Assembly: GCA_003054695.1 (NCBI GenBank)
Contig: QAZA01000005.1
Location: 1-64,000 of the forward strand
Reading direction: 5' to 3'
Length of the DNA: 64,000 nucleotides
Source: Verrucomicrobia bacterium LW23
GTDB lineage: Bacteria > Verrucomicrobiota > Verrucomicrobiia > Methylacidiphilales > UBA1321
In this document: piece after piece, positions 5,788-28,720 of the stretch
Layout of the letters: every line of letters begins with the position of its first letter
Position numbering within the stretch: the stretch's first letter is position 1
Notes under the pieces: generated by a model
Database searches by the model: none
What the model saw: the letters and a program-made list of their open reading frames with translations, nothing else
Told to the model about the DNA's origin: nothing
Program-made: the position numbers and the translations under genes

Positions 5788-6252
5788 GCGGCAGATGTGT
5801 GGAGACGTGTTGCGTTTCGATCCGGCAGACGCCGCCCGAGAATGGCACAGCGCCGCGGCGGCGTACTGGCGTGCTGCTAAGGCCTGATGCTAAAGGGGTT
5901 TGCGAGATCGTCCAGAGCAAAAAGGCAGAAGCCGGGTGTTTTCCCCTTTAGACGGTCACTCGGGCAAGTCTGTGCGAAAATTGTCCGAAAAAAGACAAGA
6001 TCGGTCTTCATTGTGGCAAAAGAGTCCGAAAGTACGTACCGATACCACAGTTTGATCGGCCGCGCAGATTTTTTTGTTAAGATAAAATCGACAATTGCGC
6101 TTCAGCCAGTCAATTTGAGGACACACGGCAGTGATTTACTCCGGTTGACATTGCGCGCCATAAATGAGCGTACATTTTTTCCGATCCGCCCCATATCCCC
6201 TTATCCCCCAGTCGTCAACCAGAGCGACTGCCGGACCCATTAAGCCCGCGAC
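5788..6252. other. AT-rich intergenic/promoter region
   Basis: About 465 bases between a leftward and a rightward gene, so it should hold two divergent promoters. Bases about 5960-6190 are distinctly AT-rich, with a TTGACA at 6145-6150, but no TATAAT-like hexamer sits at 16-18 bases from it. A 118-codon plus-strand frame at 5887-6243 has no domain features and atypical composition, so I do not call it a gene. Confidence 0.5.
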
Positions 6253-6975
6253 GTGAGCGCTGTACCTCAACTCCAGGCTACATACCAGGCACCGGCCCCC
6301 CGGCTTGTGGGGGACGAGGCGCCGCACCACTATCTTTCGGCGCTGGACGTGTTGCAGGTTGTCTCGCAAAGCAAGGCCAGTGTGTTTATGCAACTGCAGC
6401 TGGGCTGCGATGCGGCGCAGATCTGGATCTGCCGCGGCATTCTGTTCAAGATCGCCACCCTGCGCGATGGCGAAATCTCCGCCTCGGCGCGCGCGGATGT
6501 GCTGATGACGGAGCCCGGCGTCGATCTCTCCATCGCGCCCCTCACCTCCGCCCCCTACCCCGCGGACGAAAACAAGGCGCTGCTCATCTCCATTGAGGAT
6601 CTGGTGCTGCAACTCGCTCAGGCCAAGGATCTTGGCTTCCTCGGCCACGAGCCCGGCATACCGCAGATTGAGCGCGAGCCCTATGAGGGCGGGCTTTTCT
6701 TCGAGTTCATGAACGAGCCGCGGCCGCCCATGCCCATCACCGCCGCCGCCTTCACCATTGGCCGCCACGGCACCTGCGGCATTTTGCTTACGGATAGCAG
6801 CGTCTCCAACTTTCACTGCCACTTGCAGGTACGCAATGACTGCGTGTTTGCGGAAGACCTGGCGGCCACCAACGGCACGTTCATCGACGGCCGGCGCATC
6901 CTCAGCGGCGTTCTTTATGTCAACAGCATGCTGACGGTGGGGAGCACGATGCTGCGCCTGGTGCGGGCCAAATAG
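6253..6975 (+). CDS. PATAN (DUF4388)-FHA domain signalling protein
   Basis: A 240-residue cytoplasmic protein starting at GTG. Residues about 25-140 resemble the DUF4388/PATAN domain found in bacterial two-component and gliding-motility proteins. Residues about 155-238 are an FHA domain, with the canonical phosphothreonine-binding pieces: TIGRHGTCGILL, SNFHC (the Ser-x-x-His pair) and TNGTFIDG. FHA domains read phosphorylated threonines, so it likely works with a Ser/Thr kinase; one such kinase is encoded in this window at 54473-55465, though not adjacent. It is followed by the disulfide reductase gene after 82 bases. Domain calls are firm, partner inferred. Confidence 0.85.
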   Translation: MSAVPQLQATYQAPAPRLVGDEAPHHYLSALDVLQVVSQSKASVFMQLQLGCDAAQIWICRGILFKIATLRDGEISASARADVLMTEPGVDLSIAPLTSAPYPADENKALLISIEDLVLQLAQAKDLGFLGHEPGIPQIEREPYEGGLFFEFMNEPRPPMPITAAAFTIGRHGTCGILLTDSSVSNFHCHLQVRNDCVFAEDLAATNGTFIDGRRILSGVLYVNSMLTVGSTMLRLVRAK

Positions 6976-7057
6976 CTTCGGACGTATCGTCCATGGGACG
7001 GCCGGCCAGCCCCTTAACACAGGATTTTACCACTGGCGCATAGCCGGATTGTAGGCT

Positions 7058-8674
7058 ATGAAGTTAGTGCCTATGAGCACGAACTGCAGCGAGTCTGAAT
7101 TCGATGTCATTATCCTCGGCGGCGGCAGCGCCGGTTACGCGGCGGCGCGCACCGCCGCCAGCCTGGGCGCCCGCGTGGCGGTGGTGGAGGGCGGGCCGGA
7201 CGTGGGCGGCCTGTGCATTTTGCGCGGCTGCATGCCATCCAAAACGTTGCTGGAGAGCAGCTACCGCTGGCACGAGATTATGCGCGCCCGACAGTTTGGC
7301 CTGGATGTAAAACCCGGTGCGCCCATCGTCAAGGAAATCATTGCCCGCAAACGCACGCTTATTGGCGAGTTTGCAGACTACCGCCGCAGCCAGCTGGAGG
7401 CCGGCAAATTCACCTTCTACCGCGCCACCGCCCGCTTTGCGGATGCCCACACGCTGGAGCTCACCCCCGTTGCCCGGGATTCAGGCGCAGGCGCGGTCCC
7501 CGCCACCATCCGCGGCAAAACGTTTGTCATCACCACCGGCTCGGAGATCTCCCCTCCCCGCATCCCCGGCCTTAAGGAGGCCGGCTACCTGACGAGCGAT
7601 ACCGCGCTGGACAACGAAACGCTCCCCGACTCCATTATAGTGCTGGGCGGCGGCGTTATTGCGGTGGAGCTGGGGCAGTACTACTCCCACCTGGGCAGCA
7701 AAGTCACCCTCATTCAGCGCAGCGAGCGCATACTCAAGGAGAACGACGACGACGTCTCCGCCGTGATAGAAAAGGCGTTTCGAGACGAAGGGGTGGCGCT
7801 CTACACCAGCACCTCGCTCATCGACGTCACCACCTGCCCCGAAGGCAAAACGGTGCGCTTTACCCACGAGGGCGTGGAGAAATCGGTTACCGCGCAGGAG
7901 ATCCTTTACGCCCTGGGCCGCGAGCCCCGCGTGCGCGACCTTAACCTGCCCGCCGCCGGCGTGGAGCTCACGGCCAAAGGCAAAGCCATCGCCGTGGATA
8001 ACGGCATGCGCACCTCTGCGCCGCACATCTTCGCCGCCGGCGATGTCGTCGGCCTGTACGAGGTAGTGCACGTCGCCATCTCCCAGGGCGAATGCGCCGC
8101 GTGGAACGCCGTGCAACTGCTGCGCGGCGACGCCGGCAAAACGCCCAACGTAACCCTGCACGCCGGCAGCGGCCCCGTCGGCCTGCCCGGCGTAGGCGCC
8201 GGCGATTTCTCCCCCGGCAGCCACGCGCATGCGGAGCCGGCCGGCGTCCAACCCTGCGACGAAGTCACCGGCAAAGCCCCCTGCGCCGCCCGCACCATGG
8301 ATTACCGGCTCAAAACCACCGTCACCTTCACCCACCCGGAAATCGCCTCCGTGGGCCTTACCGAGAAGGAGGCGATCGCCGCGGGCATCGCCTACAAGGC
8401 GGCCAAATACCCGTTCGACGACCACGGCAAATCGCAAATCATGGGCGCCCTCTACGGCTTCGTCAAAGTGCTGGCCGAGCCGACCCGCGGCGAAATCATC
8501 GGCGCCCACATCGTCGGCCCCCACGCCTCCGATCTCATCCACGAGCTGATCGCCGTCATGTACTTCCGCGGCACCGTCAAGGATTTGGCGCTCATCCCCC
8601 ACTACCACCCCACCCTGGCCGAGATCGTCACCTACCCGGCCGAGGAACTGGCCGAGGAGTTTGGACTGGTGTAG
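7058..8674 (+). CDS. Mercuric reductase-like FAD/NAD(P)-disulfide oxidoreductase
   Basis: A 538-residue flavoprotein with the full disulfide reductase signature. The FAD site GGGSAGYAA is near residue 21, and the redox pair GLCILRGC has both cysteines (C53 and C58) followed by MPSKTL. The NAD fold starts at LGGGVIAVE, the second FAD motif is FAAGDV, and the dimerisation domain has the His-Glu pair in HYHPTLAEI. The C-terminus lacks the Cys pair that mercuric reductases use to bind Hg2+, so true MerA activity is doubtful. Residues about 365-412 are a Gly/Pro-rich insertion at the start of the dimerisation domain. Unlike the relative at 3463-5034 it should be redox competent. Start at the first ATG; a second ATG lies five codons on. 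Confidence 0.88.
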   Translation: MKLVPMSTNCSESEFDVIILGGGSAGYAAARTAASLGARVAVVEGGPDVGGLCILRGCMPSKTLLESSYRWHEIMRARQFGLDVKPGAPIVKEIIARKRTLIGEFADYRRSQLEAGKFTFYRATARFADAHTLELTPVARDSGAGAVPATIRGKTFVITTGSEISPPRIPGLKEAGYLTSDTALDNETLPDSIIVLGGGVIAVELGQYYSHLGSKVTLIQRSERILKENDDDVSAVIEKAFRDEGVALYTSTSLIDVTTCPEGKTVRFTHEGVEKSVTAQEILYALGREPRVRDLNLPAAGVELTAKGKAIAVDNGMRTSAPHIFAAGDVVGLYEVVHVAISQGECAAWNAVQLLRGDAGKTPNVTLHAGSGPVGLPGVGAGDFSPGSHAHAEPAGVQPCDEVTGKAPCAARTMDYRLKTTVTFTHPEIASVGLTEKEAIAAGIAYKAAKYPFDDHGKSQIMGALYGFVKVLAEPTRGEIIGAHIVGPHASDLIHELIAVMYFRGTVKDLALIPHYHPTLAEIVTYPAEELAEEFGLV

Positions 8675-19878: not shown

Positions 19879-21129
19879 ATGAACATTCCCCCCGTACCAT
19901 CGCCCCGCCCCGCGAGCGCCTATGCCGGCGCCGGCGGTCCTCCGCGCATGCCCATCAAGCTAAACTCGCCGGGCAACACGCTTCTCATCCAGATCTTCGC
20001 CTACACCACGGCGTTCATGGTGATGATGGGCATGGGCCTTGTTTTCCTGCTCATCATCGGCATCAACATGGGCCCCGTAAATATGTTTGTGGGCATGTTC
20101 CTGGCCACCATCCCCGTGCCGGCCTACATTACCGTCCTGCTGTTGCTGGACCGCCTGGAGCCGGAGCCGCCGGTGATGATGGCAATGGCATTTATCTGGG
20201 GCGCAACGGGTTCTGTGCTTTTCTCGGTACTCTCCAACGATACGATGGGCGCGATTGCGCACGCTGTTTTCGGCGCCGGCCACGTCCATAACGTGCTGGG
20301 GCTCTCCGTTTTTGCGCCGATTAACGAGGAGCTCTCCAAGGCGTTTATCCTTCTCGTCTTCTTTATCTGGCGTCGTCGCGAGTTTGACGGCCTGCTGGAC
20401 GGCATCATCTACGGCTCGCTGGCCGGTCTCGGCTTTGCGATGTCGGAGAACTTCCTCTACTACGGCCGCGCGTTTCATCAGGGCGGCGCGGGCGGTGCGC
20501 TGTTCCTTCTCTTTCTGCGCGGCGTGTTCTGCGCGTTCTCGCACCCCCTGTTTACCAGCATGACGGGCATTGGCTTTGCGATTGCCGCTAACAGCCGTTA
20601 TATGGCGGTGCGCATCATCTGTCCGATTGTCGGCCTGATCCTGGCGATGGGACTGCACGGCTTGTGGAACTTCTTCGGCACCAACATCATGGCCGAGGTG
20701 GCGCAGACGCCCTGGATCGGCCTGACGTCGATCGTTGTCATCATGTTCCCCGGCGCGTTCCTCATGCTTTCCATCGCGGCTTACTCGCTCTGGTCGGAGC
20801 TTAAGGTCATTAAAAAGCAGCTGGCGCCTTACCACCACAACGGCCTGCTTAGCGACGAGGAATACAAGGCGGCCTGCTCCCTTTTCAGCCGCCTGTTCTT
20901 CCGCTTTGGCGCCATGAAGAAGGCCGGGCCGGCCGGCTTTTACCACGCCGGCAACCTGCTGGCCTACGCCACCGAGCTCGCCTTCCACCGCAAACGCGTG
21001 GAGGACGGCACCGCCTCCGGCAACATGGAGCTCGATCGCCAGCTCGAAGACGGCTTTCTCGGCGGCGTGATGGAAGCCAAGAACGCCCTGGCGGCAGGCG
21101 CGCGAGGGGTTACGCCACGGTCGGCGTAA
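19879..21129 (+). CDS. PrsW-family intramembrane metalloprotease
   Basis: A 416-residue multi-pass membrane protein. It has a Pro-rich cytosolic N-terminus of about 30 residues, then eight or so hydrophobic helices carrying the PrsW motifs: NEELSKAF (Glu150-Glu151), DGIIYGSLAGLGFAMSEN near 174-191 and SHPLFT near 221. A soluble C-terminal extension of about 130 residues follows (LKVIKKQLAPYHHNG onward). PrsW proteases cleave anti-sigma factors or membrane substrates in some bacteria; the target here is unknown. All motif residues are kept, so it is probably active. A plausible AAGGA ribosome site lies just before the ATG. Confidence 0.87.
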   Translation: MNIPPVPSPRPASAYAGAGGPPRMPIKLNSPGNTLLIQIFAYTTAFMVMMGMGLVFLLIIGINMGPVNMFVGMFLATIPVPAYITVLLLLDRLEPEPPVMMAMAFIWGATGSVLFSVLSNDTMGAIAHAVFGAGHVHNVLGLSVFAPINEELSKAFILLVFFIWRRREFDGLLDGIIYGSLAGLGFAMSENFLYYGRAFHQGGAGGALFLLFLRGVFCAFSHPLFTSMTGIGFAIAANSRYMAVRIICPIVGLILAMGLHGLWNFFGTNIMAEVAQTPWIGLTSIVVIMFPGAFLMLSIAAYSLWSELKVIKKQLAPYHHNGLLSDEEYKAACSLFSRLFFRFGAMKKAGPAGFYHAGNLLAYATELAFHRKRVEDGTASGNMELDRQLEDGFLGGVMEAKNALAAGARGVTPRSA

Positions 21130-22370: not shown

Positions 22371-22521
22371 TGATCTAGAACAGAGGAAACTTTATTTAAC
22401 CCCCATTCCGCACCCCGCGTCAATATCAAAAGCTTCGCCCCCAAAACTTTGCGCTCGCCTCCGCCGCCGCCCTTGCCTAGAAAGATTTTTTCCCCACTAC
22501 ACCCTCCTTTTCACGTCCTAC

Positions 22522-23787
22522 ATGAAGATTCTGATCGTTGGCGGCGGTGGCCGCGAGCACGCGCTGGCCTGGAAGTTCAAGTCCGATGATGCTGCGGCTG
22601 AGCTGTTTATCGCGCCCGGCAACGCCGGCACCGCCGCGCTGGGCACCAACCTCCCCATCAGCGCCACCAACATTCCGCAGCTGCTGGAGTGGGCCAAAGC
22701 CAACCGGCCTGACCTTACCTTTGTGGGCCCCGAGGCACCTCTGTGCGCGGGCATTGTGGATGTGTTTGCGGTGGAAGGCTTTGCGATTTTTGGCCCCAAT
22801 AAGGCTGGAGCTCAGCTGGAGGGCAGCAAGATCTTTACCAAAAATATTCTCGACAAATACGGCATCCCCACAGCCAAAAGCGCCACATTTACCGTGGCGG
22901 CGGAGGCGTATGCGTACAGCCAGCAGCAGCCTTACCCGCAAGTGATTAAGGCGGATGGACTTGCATCCGGCAAAGGCGTGACCGTGGCGCTAAACCCCTG
23001 GATGGCCACGCGCGCCATTTACGACGCGATGGAGAAGAAGATTTTTGGCGAAGCGGGCGCACAGGTCCTGATCGAAGAGTTTTTGCCCGGCCGCGAGGCG
23101 AGCGTGCATGCGGTGAGCGATGGAACGACGCTGCGCGTTTTTCCTGCCGCGCAGGATCACAAGCGCATTGGCGACAACGACACCGGCCCCAACACCGGCG
23201 GCATGGGCGCCTACGCCCCGGCGCCGATCGTCACGCCGGAGCTGTCGCAGGTGGTGATGGACACGATTCTCGTGCCCGTCCTTAACGGCTTGCGCAGCGA
23301 GGGCATCGATTTTCGCGGCATCCTGTACGCGGGGCTGATGATCTCCCCCGCCGGGCCTAAAGTGTTGGAGTTCAACGTCCGCTTTGGCGATCCGGAGACG
23401 CAGGTTATCTTGCCGCTGCTGGAAACTCCCCTGGCGGAGGTGGCACTGGCGGCGATTCAGGGCCGCCTGGGCGGGCTGGAGCTGAAGTTCCGCGACGGCG
23501 CCGCCGTGTCGGTCGTCGCCGCCGCGGAGAATTACCCGGGCGATCCCCGCACGGGCGACGAAATTACCGGCATTGCTGCGGCCGAGAAGACGGGCGCGGT
23601 GGTCTTTCAGGCCGGCACGGTGCCGGGCAAGAAGAAGGGCGAAGTGCTGACTGCCGGCGGGCGCGTGCTTGCGGTCACGGGGGTCGCATCGCAGCTTGCA
23701 GAAGCGCGAAAACTTGCCTATGATGGCCTGACGCACATCCGCTTTTCCGGCGCGCAGTACCGGCGAGATATCGCCGCGCGCACGTAA
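22522..23787 (+). CDS. purD: Phosphoribosylamine-glycine ligase (GAR synthetase)
   Basis: A 421-residue ATP-grasp enzyme for the second step of purine synthesis. The start gives MKILIVGGGGREHALAW, the family's fixed N-terminus; upstream codons in the same frame are spurious. Other hallmarks are FVGPEAPLCAGIVD, KADGLASGKGV at the ATP-grasp start, and NTGGMGAYAP, with NVRFGDPETQ near the catalytic end. No other purine gene is next to it. Assignment is secure. Confidence 0.97.
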   Translation: MKILIVGGGGREHALAWKFKSDDAAAELFIAPGNAGTAALGTNLPISATNIPQLLEWAKANRPDLTFVGPEAPLCAGIVDVFAVEGFAIFGPNKAGAQLEGSKIFTKNILDKYGIPTAKSATFTVAAEAYAYSQQQPYPQVIKADGLASGKGVTVALNPWMATRAIYDAMEKKIFGEAGAQVLIEEFLPGREASVHAVSDGTTLRVFPAAQDHKRIGDNDTGPNTGGMGAYAPAPIVTPELSQVVMDTILVPVLNGLRSEGIDFRGILYAGLMISPAGPKVLEFNVRFGDPETQVILPLLETPLAEVALAAIQGRLGGLELKFRDGAAVSVVAAAENYPGDPRTGDEITGIAAAEKTGAVVFQAGTVPGKKKGEVLTAGGRVLAVTGVASQLAEARKLAYDGLTHIRFSGAQYRRDIAART

Positions 23788-23829: not shown

Positions 23830-25029
23830 ATGATTTCCCCTCGCTTATTGTCGTTGCAACAGCTTGGCATTGTTGCCTTTAGCCTTGTTTGTGCGGGGAT
23901 GTTCGGGGCATGCGGCGTGCTCGGCTTCGTCTCGGCCCAGGCGCAGCAACCCATGGCGCCTGCGCAGGTTATCGCCAGCCAGCAAAGTCCGACTACCGTG
24001 CCGGCCTCCGCGGGGGATCCCGCCACGCCCCTCCCCCCGGCTCCGCAGCCCAGCGATGCCGAGGTTGCCGAGACTGTAAAGTTGCTGAAGGAGTTTTACA
24101 CCGACCCTGCGGCCGTTAAGGACGCAAAGGAAGACAAGGCGGCGTTAACCGCTCTTATGCAGCAACTTGGGGGCGGCGTTGCGATTCTCTCCACCAGCGT
24201 GGCGCCCGCCGGACAAATGCCGCGCCCGATCTACACGGAGCTCCTGCCGCAGAACGTGGGCTACGTGCGCGTGCCCAGCTTCGCGTTCCCCAAGGACCGC
24301 CTGGCGTTTGAGCTGCTGCTGAACGACTGGAACCGCGCGGGCATCCTGGGCCTGGTGCTGGATCTGCGCGACTTTGAGGCGACGAGTGATTTTGGCGGCG
24401 CGGCGCAGATGCTGAGCTTTTTTACGCGCGGCGGGCTGGACCTGTTTACCGTGCAAGGGCTTCAGATTCAACAACGTGTGTATACCAACGAGCGCCGCGC
24501 CTCCACATTCAGCCGCCCCATTGTGGTGCTGATTAACGGCCGCACGATCGGCGCCGGCGAGGTCTTCGCCGCCGTGATGCGTGTCTCGGGCAAGGCCATC
24601 ATCATGGGTCGCTCCACAGCGGGGCTGGCCGCCGTGTTTGTGGAGAAGCCGCTGCCGACGGGCCGCAGCCTGCGACTGGCCACCGGTCAGGCCACGCTGG
24701 CGGATGGCACGCGCCTTTTCGGCGTCCCGGTTTCGCCGGATATACCTGTGGTTACGGATGATACGAAGGAGCGCGAGCAGCTGCTCACCGTCGCGCAATC
24801 CACCGCCGCGCGCCTGATTCAGGAGCTGCCCCCTCGCCTGCGCCTGTCCGAGGCGGCGCTGGTTCGAGAGGAGAACCCGGAGTATGATGCCGCGTTGTCC
24901 GAGCGCAGCCGCACACGGGCGCCCGCCAAGAGCGAGACGCTGGTGCAGGACGTGACGCTGATCCGCGCGCTGGACGTGCTGCGCGCGATTCACCTGACCG
25001 CGCCGGCGTATAGCGGCGGGGCGGGTTGA
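23830..25029 (+). CDS. Exported S41-peptidase-like protein, catalytically degenerate
   Basis: A 399-residue protein with an N-terminal membrane or signal segment (about 11-38). The middle (about 140-310) follows the C-terminal processing protease (S41) fold: VGYVRVPSFAF, LVLDLRDFE, PIVVLINGRTIGAGEVFAA, then GRSTAGLAAVF. In active members the LINxxSASASE segment carries the catalytic Ser and the GxxTxGKG segment the Lys. Here these positions are Gly241 and Leu266, so both catalytic residues appear lost. No PDZ domain is evident. It begins 42 bases after purD and ends 93 bases before a secreted TPR gene. Probably a binding or scaffold protein in the periplasm; function unknown. Confidence 0.75.
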   Translation: MISPRLLSLQQLGIVAFSLVCAGMFGACGVLGFVSAQAQQPMAPAQVIASQQSPTTVPASAGDPATPLPPAPQPSDAEVAETVKLLKEFYTDPAAVKDAKEDKAALTALMQQLGGGVAILSTSVAPAGQMPRPIYTELLPQNVGYVRVPSFAFPKDRLAFELLLNDWNRAGILGLVLDLRDFEATSDFGGAAQMLSFFTRGGLDLFTVQGLQIQQRVYTNERRASTFSRPIVVLINGRTIGAGEVFAAVMRVSGKAIIMGRSTAGLAAVFVEKPLPTGRSLRLATGQATLADGTRLFGVPVSPDIPVVTDDTKEREQLLTVAQSTAARLIQELPPRLRLSEAALVREENPEYDAALSERSRTRAPAKSETLVQDVTLIRALDVLRAIHLTAPAYSGGAG

Positions 25030-25122
25030 TGGTCTGGACTTTTTTTGCACACAACAAGACATCCGAGATAAACGTTGTCGTGTCGCTGGACTTGTCACGT
25101 ATATGCGTGTACACTCAGGCTC

Positions 25123-26361
25123 ATGCTGAATCGCCAAGGTGCTCGCGCTTTCCGACTGCTTTTCCGTTCCGTCGCTGTAACGTTTGCATGCGCGGCAGCC
25201 GCAATGCCCGGCGTGGTTTCCGCGGGCCCGGGCGATGGCGCGGCCGTTGGCCCCTCCCCCGCCCTTGTGCAGGATACGCCGGGCACCATCCCCAACGGCC
25301 CTTACATTCCGCTACCCAAACCCGGCGCGCAGGATAAGGAGCCGACGGCCGACGGCCAGGTGATTCTGAAGGAAGCCCTGAACCACATGGCCCGGGAGGA
25401 TTACACCGCGGCCATCCCCGCTCTGGACAAGCTGGTGAGCGCCGAGCCCGTTTACATTGCGTACTTTTTACGCGCCGTGTGCAAGGCCGCGACGGCGGAC
25501 GATGACGGAGCCATGGATGACGTGACAAAAGCGCTGGAGATTCGCACCACGCCCAATGCCTTGATATTGCGCGGCCAGGTGCTGGTGCAGCAGGGCAAGT
25601 ACGAGGAAGGCGCGCAAATCTTCAGCATTACCCTTAACGGCCTGCGCCGCAATAACTCGCCGGAGAAGCTGCGGAGCAACCCGGAGTCCCTGCGCATGCT
25701 GGGCCACTGCACGCGCGGCCTCGGCGTGGCGCTTAGCTGCATGGGCGGGCACGACGAGGTGGCGGCCAACTATTACAAGGCGGCCGGCATGGTGCTTACG
25801 GAACCGGAGCCGCACCTGTACGTTAGCATGTTTGCCTGGTGCCTGCAGGCGCGCACGCGCAACGGGGCCTCCATGACTGAGGAGGTGCGCAAGGGAATTG
25901 CCGCGGATAAGGAGGGCATCCAGAAGGAGTGGGACGAAAAGAAAAAGGGCGGTGAGAATCCGACGGGTGGCGCCGAGAGGGCGTGGCCGCTTTACGTTGC
26001 GGAGTATCTCATCAGCGACACGGCTGACCACGACAAACTGCTGGCCCAGGCCAGTGTGGCGCGCGACAAGAAAACCGCCGTCGATCAGCTGTGCGAAGCG
26101 CACTACTATATTGCCATGCGCCTTCGCAACGATGGCAAGGACGACCAGGCCGAGCAACACCTCCTCGCGGCGATCAACACCGGCGCCCGCACGATGACCG
26201 AGCACGTGATGGCGCGCGCCGAGCTTCAGCTGCTGAAAAATCCGCCTGAACCCGCCGCCCCCGCACCGCGCCGCCCAGCGCCCGCACCAGCTCCCTCCCC
26301 TGCCCCTGCACCGCGAGAGCCGCTGCCGGACACGGACATGCCGACGAGCGTGGGGATTTAG
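25123..26361 (+). CDS. Secreted TPR-repeat protein (one module copy)
   Basis: A 412-residue protein. The ATG at 25123 starts a signal peptide that ends near AMPGVVSAG. Residues about 75-390 form a helical TPR-like module: ALNHMAREDYTAAIPALDKLV and ALILRGQVLVQQGKYEEGAQIF, closing with LCEAHYYIAMRLRND and an AEQHLLAAINTG helix. The last 45 residues are Pro/Ala-rich. The same module occurs twice in the next gene. TPR modules mediate protein-protein contacts, so an envelope scaffold role is likely but unproven. It follows the degenerate S41 gene in the same direction. Confidence 0.75.
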   Translation: MLNRQGARAFRLLFRSVAVTFACAAAAMPGVVSAGPGDGAAVGPSPALVQDTPGTIPNGPYIPLPKPGAQDKEPTADGQVILKEALNHMAREDYTAAIPALDKLVSAEPVYIAYFLRAVCKAATADDDGAMDDVTKALEIRTTPNALILRGQVLVQQGKYEEGAQIFSITLNGLRRNNSPEKLRSNPESLRMLGHCTRGLGVALSCMGGHDEVAANYYKAAGMVLTEPEPHLYVSMFAWCLQARTRNGASMTEEVRKGIAADKEGIQKEWDEKKKGGENPTGGAERAWPLYVAEYLISDTADHDKLLAQASVARDKKTAVDQLCEAHYYIAMRLRNDGKDDQAEQHLLAAINTGARTMTEHVMARAELQLLKNPPEPAAPAPRRPAPAPAPSPAPAPREPLPDTDMPTSVGI

Positions 26362-26764: not shown

Positions 26765-28720
26765 ATGCTTCTCCGCTTTCTTACTTTCCCCTGCCTTGCC
26801 GCCGTGATGGCCGCTGCGTGGATCGCCGCCGCCCGGGGACAGACGGCTACGAATGCGCCGGCCGCGCCTTCTACCAACGCGCCCATTACTGCGCCGGGCG
26901 CCGGCAAGCAGGAGAAGCAGCCCTCGGCCGAGGGGGTTGCCGCGCTTAAGAAGGCGGCCGATGTTGCCGGTAAGGGCGATGTGAAGGGGGCCGTTCAGAT
27001 TCTGGACGCCGCGCTGGCGAAGGAGGAGCTCTTTACGGGTTACTACCTGCGCGGGCGTTTCAAGCACTTGCTGGGCGACTTTACCGGTGCGCTGGCGGAT
27101 GCCGACAAGGCGATCGCCATGCGCCGCACGTTGCGCGCGCTGGATCTTCGCGGCCATATCCTTTTGGATCTCAAGCGCTTCCGCGAGAGTCAGCAGTGTT
27201 TTGAGCTGGCGCTTGCCCTGCAGGAGCGCTCCGGCAACAAGATGCTCGATCCGTCGTGCCTGCAGGGGCTCGGCATTGCCGTGTACTGCCAGGGCGGCAA
27301 CGATCAGCTGGCGCTGGAGTACTTTCAGCAGGCCATGGAGATTGAGAGCGTGCCTAAGGAGCGTCTCTACAACGCTTTGTATTCGTGGAGCGTGTGCGCC
27401 CGCGCCTCCAGCGTTTCTCGGGCAAAGGAGATGCTGACGGAAGCCGTTGCGAAAGCGCGCTCCACGCAGTCTGAGGAAGCATCCGCCCCTTCCGACACCG
27501 CATCCACCGCGTGGCCCGTCATCATTGGCGAGTTTCTGCTCTCCGAGAAGGAACTGCCGGCGCGGCTTCTGGAGAAAGCGCAGGCCGCCAAGGATGAGAA
27601 AACCCGCAAGGATCAGCTCTGTGAGGCAAACTACTACATTGCCATGAAGTACCTGGACTTTGGCGTGGAGGACCTGGCGAAAAAGCACCTGCAGGCGGCG
27701 GTGGACACGCAGGCGCTGGACCTGGTGGAGCATAAGCTTGCGACGGCCGAGCTGGAGATGCTTTTCTCCCCCGTGGCGCCGCTGAGGGAGCCCGCGCACC
27801 TTCACATGGGCCAGCGACCCAATGACGACGCCGCGCCGCTGACGGAGGAGGTGAAGGCGGAACTGAGCAAAGCCGCAGAAGCGTCGGGAGCGCATCGGCA
27901 CGCCGAGGCGATCAAGATTCTGGATGCGGTGCTTGCCAGGGGCGACAACTACTTTGCCGTCTACTCCCGCGCGTGGACCCGATGGCACCAGGAGGACGTG
28001 GACGGTGCGCTTAAGGATGCGGATAAGGCCGTGGCCATGCGCCAGAGCGTGCGCGCGCTGTGCATGCAGGGCCGGTTTCTGCTGGCCAAAGGCCGGTACA
28101 AGGAGGGCCTGGAAAGCTATTCGCGCGCCATGGCGATTCAGGAGCTGGCCAAGGCCTCGCTGCCCGATCAGCGCTCCCTGCTGGGCGCGGCCGAAGCCTT
28201 GTACTGCGCCGGCGACGTGGAGAGCGCTAACCGGGCCATCCATTATCTGAATCTCGCCAAACGGTACGCGATTGCGGAGGATCGCCTGCACGCGACCCAC
28301 GTGATTTGGTGCCTCTATGCCCGCAACCGCCTGGGCAACCGGGCAAAATCCTTGCTGGAGGCCACGCTTGCTCACGCCGGTCCGACGCTGCGCACGGACG
28401 AAGCCATGCAGGGTAAACAGTTCCGCAATCCCTGGCTGATTGTGGTCGCCGAGTTTATCCTGAACCCGGAGATGAAGCCGGAGCGCCTTACCGATGCCGC
28501 GAAGGAGGAGACCGACCTCAGGCTGCGGAAGCATCTTTTGTGCAAGATGTACTATTACATTGCGATGAGGTATCGAAACGAGCTGAAGGACGAGATGGCG
28601 GAGAAAAACCTGCGCCTGGCCATCGATACCCAGGCGCTCACCGCCACCGAGTACACGTTAGCCCAGGCCGAGCTGGCCGTGATCGCGAAGGAGCGGGACG
28701 AGAGCGCAAAGGCGAAGTAG
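26765..28720 (+). CDS. Secreted TPR-repeat protein (two module copies)
   Basis: A 651-residue protein with a signal peptide (MLLRFLTFPCLAAVMAAAW, cleavage near ARGQ). Two copies of a module of about 290 residues follow. Each begins with a TPR-like pair (GDVKGAVQILDAALAK and HRHAEAIKILDAVLAR), continues through GALxDADKAxAMR, and ends with the YYIAM helix (LCEANYYIAMKY and LCKMYYYIAMRY) and an AVDTQAL/AIDTQAL helix. The upstream gene has a third, more diverged copy, so these are tandem paralogues with an internal duplication. Expected location is the periplasm. No enzymatic motif seen. Confidence 0.78.
   Translation: MLLRFLTFPCLAAVMAAAWIAAARGQTATNAPAAPSTNAPITAPGAGKQEKQPSAEGVAALKKAADVAGKGDVKGAVQILDAALAKEELFTGYYLRGRFKHLLGDFTGALADADKAIAMRRTLRALDLRGHILLDLKRFRESQQCFELALALQERSGNKMLDPSCLQGLGIAVYCQGGNDQLALEYFQQAMEIESVPKERLYNALYSWSVCARASSVSRAKEMLTEAVAKARSTQSEEASAPSDTASTAWPVIIGEFLLSEKELPARLLEKAQAAKDEKTRKDQLCEANYYIAMKYLDFGVEDLAKKHLQAAVDTQALDLVEHKLATAELEMLFSPVAPLREPAHLHMGQRPNDDAAPLTEEVKAELSKAAEASGAHRHAEAIKILDAVLARGDNYFAVYSRAWTRWHQEDVDGALKDADKAVAMRQSVRALCMQGRFLLAKGRYKEGLESYSRAMAIQELAKASLPDQRSLLGAAEALYCAGDVESANRAIHYLNLAKRYAIAEDRLHATHVIWCLYARNRLGNRAKSLLEATLAHAGPTLRTDEAMQGKQFRNPWLIVVAEFILNPEMKPERLTDAAKEETDLRLRKHLLCKMYYYIAMRYRNELKDEMAEKNLRLAIDTQALTATEYTLAQAELAVIAKERDESAKAK

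Follow-up and report, generated by a model that had tools for sequence, protein, structure and literature searches.

A non-catalytic family of exported S41 peptidase homologues in Verrucomicrobiota and its possible partnership with CtpA

Introduction

What does an exported peptidase homologue do once its catalytic dyad has been lost? The question is raised by a single gene, here called pS41, in a 64,000-nucleotide stretch of DNA (the window). A first-pass annotation, made from the sequence alone, had described its product as an exported relative of the C-terminal processing proteases that has every segment of the fold but neither Ser nor Lys at the active site, and had proposed an adaptor role on the strength of secreted TPR proteins encoded next to it.

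Published work on CtpA of P. aeruginosa (PaCtpA) and H. pylori (HpCtpA) gives a frame for this question. In these hexamers no more than one protomer per N-terminal dimer is active, and a loop of a neighbouring protomer (the motile or trans-interacting loop) is inserted at the active unit and closes it (PMC11021448, PMC12749690, PMC8764530); an inactive protomer and a trans loop are described for PaCtpA (PMC11021448). In HpCtpA (PMC12749690), Glu382 of the loop is bonded to His85 of the DPHS motif of the active protomer, activity is largely reduced by E382A and abolished by E382R, and the Glu382-His85 pair is conserved among CtpAs. NlpI and LbcA are envelope TPR partners that control the S41 proteases Prc and CtpA (PMC8764530). 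Searches of open-licence PMC papers directed at this question or at pseudoenzymes listed no description of the pS41 family.

Results

Gene product and predicted fold

The features of the gene and its surroundings are collected in Table 1. A Pfam scan of the window protein detected Peptidase_S41 (PF03572) with an E value of 1.7e-21 and a score of 76.9 bits, where the cut-off is 24, and nothing else that was credible; there was one S41 stretch, with no tandem modules, and no PDZ domain matched at E up to 1. PHROGs gave no match. A hydrophobic 13-mer near the N-terminus is present in 93 of the 97 family members, and cleavage of the signal was placed by eye at AQA/QQ.

Table 1. Features of the pS41 gene and its neighbours in the window
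Feature	Position	Strand	Basis
purD (GARS), conserved upstream neighbour	22492..23787	+	Pfam, locus survey
pS41 (exported S41 pseudoprotease), 399 aa	23830..25029	+	ORF, Pfam, model, fold match
N-terminal hydrophobic export signal, residues 1-38	23830..23943	+	sequence; family hydrophobic 13-mer
N-terminal helices, residues 76-116	24055..24177	+	model, fold match, alignment
S41 core, residues 142-307	24253..24750	+	Pfam
DLR and remodelled oxyanion loop DLRDFEATSDFGG, residues 178-190	24361..24399	+	family alignment
Gly241 codon, position of the nucleophile Ser	24550..24552	+	alignment
Leu266 codon, position of the general-base Lys	24625..24627	+	alignment
Motile-loop motif RLSEAALVREENPE, residues 338-351	24841..24882	+	alignment, profile-profile alignment
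C-terminal helix, residues 374-390	24949..24999	+	model, alignment, profile-profile alignment
TPR protein, neighbour not conserved	25075..26361	+	Pfam, locus survey
Second TPR protein, related to that at 25075..26361, neighbour not conserved	26765..28720	+	Pfam, locus survey

The AlphaFold2 model, built from 65 family members, covers residues 67-399 with a pLDDT of 89.8 and a pTM of 0.87. In the comparison with CtpA that the first-pass annotation had suggested, the best PDB matches of this model were indeed CtpA of H. pylori (9jr1/9ku0) and P. aeruginosa (7rpq), at Z about 23; the top nine rows of the VIA-align search have Z of 22.5-23.3 over 218-235 residues with an rmsd of 4.3-5.3 A, and IRBP and other S41 proteins come after the CtpA rows. 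The N-terminal helices stand where CtpA has its N-terminal dimerisation region, with the DPHS motif lost, and the last of them is separated from the core strand at residue 135 by about 20 residues in the model. The C-terminal helix is the equivalent of the CtpA C-terminal dimerisation helix. The statement that all fold segments are present nevertheless proved wrong, because no PDZ domain was detected and the NPGG oxyanion loop has gone, the DLRNNPGG of active enzymes having its counterpart in DLRDFEATSDFGG. The window genome has three S41 genes, namely an active-looking CtpA (contig C39), a long Prc (C21) and pS41.

Loss of the catalytic site across the family

In the window protein, Gly241 and Leu266 lie 25 residues apart within NGRTIGAGEVFAAVMRVSGKAIIMGRSTAGLAAVF. 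The placing of the two sites, which had been argued from this spacing, is upheld by alignments to PDB chains and by profile-profile alignment. The reading of the protein as an exported S41 homologue without the Ser-Lys dyad is supported. For the family as a whole, we collected 134 unique S41 ORFs from the fetched loci. The pS41 lineage comprises the 97 that score at least 150 bits and do not have both Ser and Lys; 35 have both residues, and two were dropped (L170, a fragment without the site, and one row with G/R at less than 150 bits). This criterion is partly circular for the lowest-scoring members, and the tree presented below therefore serves as an independent test.

Homologues with another Ser or Lys at the site were looked for, and the claim of catalytic loss stands, as no member of the lineage has Ser at site 241 (G 71, N 20, E 2, P 2, A 1, D 1) and 5 of the 97 have Lys at 266, while all 35 Ser-bearing ORFs also have Lys. 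Whether the Gly/Leu pair is fixed in the clade had been posed as a check; the exclusion of Ser is fixed and Leu266 is not, being found in 13 of the 97, with Q (22) and E (19) commoner. Members of family f34 and Verrucomicrobiaceae-like members (L113, L115-L119, L151-L168) have Asn or Pro at the Ser position.

The losses extend beyond the dyad. The DPHS His (Pa84/Hp85) occurs in none of the 97 pS41 sequences versus all 35 of the Ser/Lys-bearing S41 proteins, and the oxyanion-loop residues N183, P184 and G186 are retained in 0, 17 and 8 of the 97 versus 33, 32 and 35 of the 35. Gln at +29 is likewise absent from the lineage (0/97). Positions kept as in active enzymes are Y145, R147, D178, R180, E244, G260, T/S263, G265, P303, D304, D374 and D382. 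New with respect to the active proteins of the set are an acid at 272 (Glu/Asp in 86 of the 97, I/V/L in active enzymes) and Glu341 in the context (N/S/R)EAxLV. pS41 is an old non-catalytic S41 family, and the first-pass annotation had understated the observation.

Distribution, clade and selection

pS41 is present in 78 of the 142 related genomes, profile A1 scoring 198 bits or more in 77 of them and 163 bits in the remaining one; with the window protein alone as query, 75 of the 142 were found at 1e-15. Of 288 genomes drawn from the phylum as a sample, 13 have it, 12 of them in the same class and one outside it. A scan of named genomes with the window protein alone found no relative, and the 20 named loci were obtained with a narrow alignment of four f34 members. 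Sixteen of these are among the 97 unique sequences, L169 is a Ser/Lys-bearing S41 protein, L170 is the fragment mentioned above, and L152 and L154 were presumably removed by the identical-sequence filter. Named members come from Brevifollis gellanilyticus and Verrucomicrobium sp. BvORR106 as well as from MAGs that carry the label Verrucomicrobiia.

pS41 forms one clade under purifying selection. In a tree of 75 rows, thinned at 72% identity and with columns 241 and 266 taken out, 62 pS41 rows stand on one side of a branch (SH-aLRT 100) and 13 active rows on the other, and 63 close pairs, which are not independent of one another, give a median dN/dS of 0.15 with a highest value of 0.50. That pS41 is a decaying gene product or an artefact of alignment is extremely improbable: the loss of the catalytic residues, and nothing beyond it, speaks for this explanation, against which stand reading frames kept open across a whole class, residues conserved specifically in the family, a confident fold and the median dN/dS, which rules out decay.

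Motile loop and C-terminal helix

When residues are counted from the catalytic Ser, the loop residue Glu382 of HpCtpA falls on the E of KEADL, where PaCtpA has E385. Glu341 of pS41 aligns with both and is conserved in 96 of the 97 members. When the family profile was aligned with four CtpAs by hhalign, LSEAALV of the window protein was paired with FKEADLQ of PaCtpA; HMMER pairs the loop likewise for PaCtpA and differently for HpCtpA. Of the 94 pS41 proteins whose loop segment could be cut (three of the 97 could not), 83 have the EAxL motif there, versus 2 of 34 Ser/Lys-bearing S41 proteins; a further 20 CtpA ORFs of the host class all lack it. Two alphaproteobacterial CtpAs have SEADLRG and SENDLRG in the loop. 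In CtpA of the host class, PDI is followed by a different acidic stretch, of the SEEDERKL type, which might take over the function of the loop. Thus the loop Glu motif and the DPHS His of the host class appear to belong to different proteins, the former to pS41 and the latter to CtpA.

The C-terminal helix is conserved in pS41 and CtpA, with zipper positions that are mostly hydrophobic; in the pS41 sequence D374, L377, A380 and D382 are conserved, and hhalign aligns the helix with its CtpA counterpart. The sequence match of the N-terminal region to CtpA is weak (4.2 bits).

Two features of the CtpA loci were seen in passing: the C-terminal loop of host-class CtpA (L121-L150, L195-L214) is short and lacks the EADL of other CtpAs, and in CtpA of family f20 the last helix is preceded instead by a motif of the FKERFGF type.

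Co-occurrence with CtpA

A CtpA profile found CtpA in 76 of the 78 genomes with pS41 versus 28 of the 64 without. Counted by family, CtpA is present in 27 of 27 with pS41 and 4 of 10 without (Fisher 9e-5, with phylogeny handled by the family counts alone); both descent and the presence of reduced genomes confound this association. The two pS41 genomes without a CtpA match, G008 and G088, may reflect assembly gaps. Families f5, f15, f20 and f25 have CtpA without pS41, and the 14 CtpAs taken from them (including L150) all lack EAxL; CtpA can thus work without either. In distance matrices, the partial correlation of pS41 with CtpA is 0.58-0.71 given purD or Prc, and that of pS41 with these controls given CtpA is 0.22-0.34, a comparison of small weight because CtpA and purD given Prc correlate as highly (0.62). 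The pS41 and ctpA genes are unlinked, and pS41 adjoins purD and glyA.

Genomic neighbourhood

In the window, purD ends 42 bases before the start of pS41. Of the 90 pS41 loci that extend 800 bases or more upstream, 53 have purD immediately before the gene on the same strand; of the 90 that extend 800 bases or more downstream, 43 have a LMW-PTP/RpiB/SHMT fusion (or a GlyA match) on that side. Both neighbours also accompany pS41 in L120, from outside the class, and in the very divergent L171, which indicates that the gene order is old; the f34 loci and the named Verrucomicrobiaceae-like loci are without this linkage. The fusion itself joins a low-molecular-weight phosphatase, RpiB and serine hydroxymethyltransferase in one protein (e.g. 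L082:8691-10856 and L091:8914-11073), in the order of the separate B. subtilis genes.

The two TPR proteins of the window score 28.4 and 61.4 bits with the NlpI model, far short of its curated cut-off (250). Of 32 pS41 loci that extend 1.5 kb or more downstream, one, the window's own, has a homologue of either protein within 3.5 kb, and the TPR neighbourhood is therefore ruled out as evidence for an adaptor. Also recorded were a gene for a PrsW-family intramembrane protease (PF13367, E 6.8e-45) at 19879-21129 of the window, a little upstream of pS41, and, in genome G104, a Prc gene (6227-8263) within 5 kb of pS41 (735-1793), both on one strand of contig C21.

Possible roles of pS41

The kinship of pS41 with CtpA lies in the core fold, the N-terminal helices, the C-terminal helix and the EAxL of the motile loop, and its difference in the absence of Ser, PDZ domain, NPGG loop and DPHS His, and of Lys in all but the five members noted above. 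From these sequence features we tentatively favour, at somewhat less than even confidence, the reading that pS41, a dead CtpA-type S41 protein, acts as a resting, loop-donating partner of CtpA, a hypothesis prompted by the occurrence of the Glu motif and the His in different proteins of the host class. Under it, pS41 would act through binding and would be the protomer that is always at rest when it forms a hetero-oligomer with active CtpA; the halves of the His-Glu pair would be divided, with pS41 having the Glu without the His and host-class CtpA the His without the Glu motif, and the loop, donated in trans by pS41, would determine access to, or the activity of, CtpA. The near-invariant loop Glu, the retained C-terminal helix, the single clade under purifying selection and the co-occurrence with CtpA speak for it. 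Against it count the four families that have CtpA but neither pS41 nor EAxL, the two pS41 genomes without a CtpA match, the SEEDERKL-type stretch of host-class CtpA, the missing linkage of the two genes, the confounding of the co-occurrence, the different HMMER alignment of the HpCtpA loop and the weak N-terminal match. A non-catalytic partner role, akin to the adaptor proposed in the first-pass annotation, leads on other grounds, while the argument from the TPR neighbours does not hold. A stronger version, by analogy, is unlikely: CtpA of Verrucomicrobiota would be split over two genes, one with the active site and the His of DPHS and the other, pS41, with the Glu of the trans loop as the resting protomer. 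The His-Glu pair, which elsewhere joins identical subunits, would here operate between two distinct proteins, in a division of labour like that of ClpP and ClpR but in an envelope protease. ClpR of chloroplast Clp cores is a non-catalytic paralogue within a protease oligomer (PMC6508832); the analogy is one of working, as ClpR belongs to another family and compartment, and its hetero-oligomer is established whereas that of pS41 is inferred. The window's TPR neighbours, with their weak NlpI matches, recall the control of Prc and CtpA by NlpI and LbcA; those are TPR proteins, however, whereas pS41 is an S41 protein whose linkage to TPR genes is not conserved.

Other roles have to be set against the loop-donating partner. 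IRBP (retinol-binding protein 3) is a non-catalytic protein of the S41 fold, and pS41 could resemble it as a stand-alone envelope binder, with a cleft that, without PDZ domain or catalysis, holds a peptide, lipid or small ligand much as IRBP holds retinoids, and with C-terminal elements that serve its own homo-oligomer. We consider this somewhat unlikely. It is favoured by the close match of profile A1 to IRBP (9frx, E 4.9e-68 over four modules), by the fold match (1j7x, Z 20.7, 253 aligned), by family-specific residues such as the acid at 272 and by the metabolic nature of the neighbouring genes, but it leaves unexplained why the loop Glu and the CtpA-type C-terminal helix rank among the best kept parts, and the co-occurrence with CtpA; IRBP is moreover an animal protein of four tandem modules, unlike the bacterial, single-module pS41 with its C-terminal elements of the CtpA type.

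A competitor or decoy that binds the substrates of CtpA or Prc, or TPR adaptors, and protects them uncut is improbable. Its setting is provided by the S41 domain protein above the Pfam cut-off that all 142 relatives have (at least one each) and by the two TPR genes adjoining pS41 in the window genome, yet the TPR linkage is confined to one of the 32 loci and pS41 is without a PDZ domain, the usual binder of substrate C-termini. Still less probable is an enzyme of changed chemistry with Thr263, Glu244, Asp178 or Glu/Asp272 as its new site. The crotonase-like fold hosts other reactions, the model matches MenB and enoyl-CoA hydratase folds at Z about 9, and, besides the acid at 272, Thr/Ser263 and Glu244 are each conserved in 96 of the 97 members; but Thr263, Glu244 and Asp178 are equally conserved in active enzymes and so are hallmarks of the fold, neither Cys nor His is conserved to 85% at any column of the family (n=97) as a replacement, and the hydroxyl columns above 85%, T/S239 and T/S263 alone, are both matched in active enzymes.

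If the loop-donating reading is true, the reason why half of the CtpA protomers rest and the function of the trans loop become directly testable in a two-gene system. Even otherwise, many genomes of the host class carry an exported S41 protein that is no Ser-Lys peptidase and is prone to misannotation.

A second exported pseudoenzyme

An exported protein of the MBL fold (PF13483) is often encoded upstream of purD in the relatives (L082:5188-6123, L084, L091, L078, L079, L081, L085), and in 21 of the 36 genomes where both occur the distance from its end to the pS41 match is 1.4-2.1 kb. The site is covered by 29 of the 31 MBL ORFs, the other two being fragments; the HxHxDH metal motif is absent from 25 of the 29 and present in 4, none of which has purD beside it in the stretches read. 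Co-dependence of pS41 and this pseudoenzyme was considered and is unsupported (36/42/17/47 genomes, Fisher 0.02; by families 0.14), and the MBL pseudoenzyme is also found in family f9, which is without pS41. The copy of the window genome (L176:4642-5886, G000:C11) lies on another contig and also lacks HxHxDH; its model has a pLDDT of 94.7, and its best PDB match is TM0207 (1vjn).
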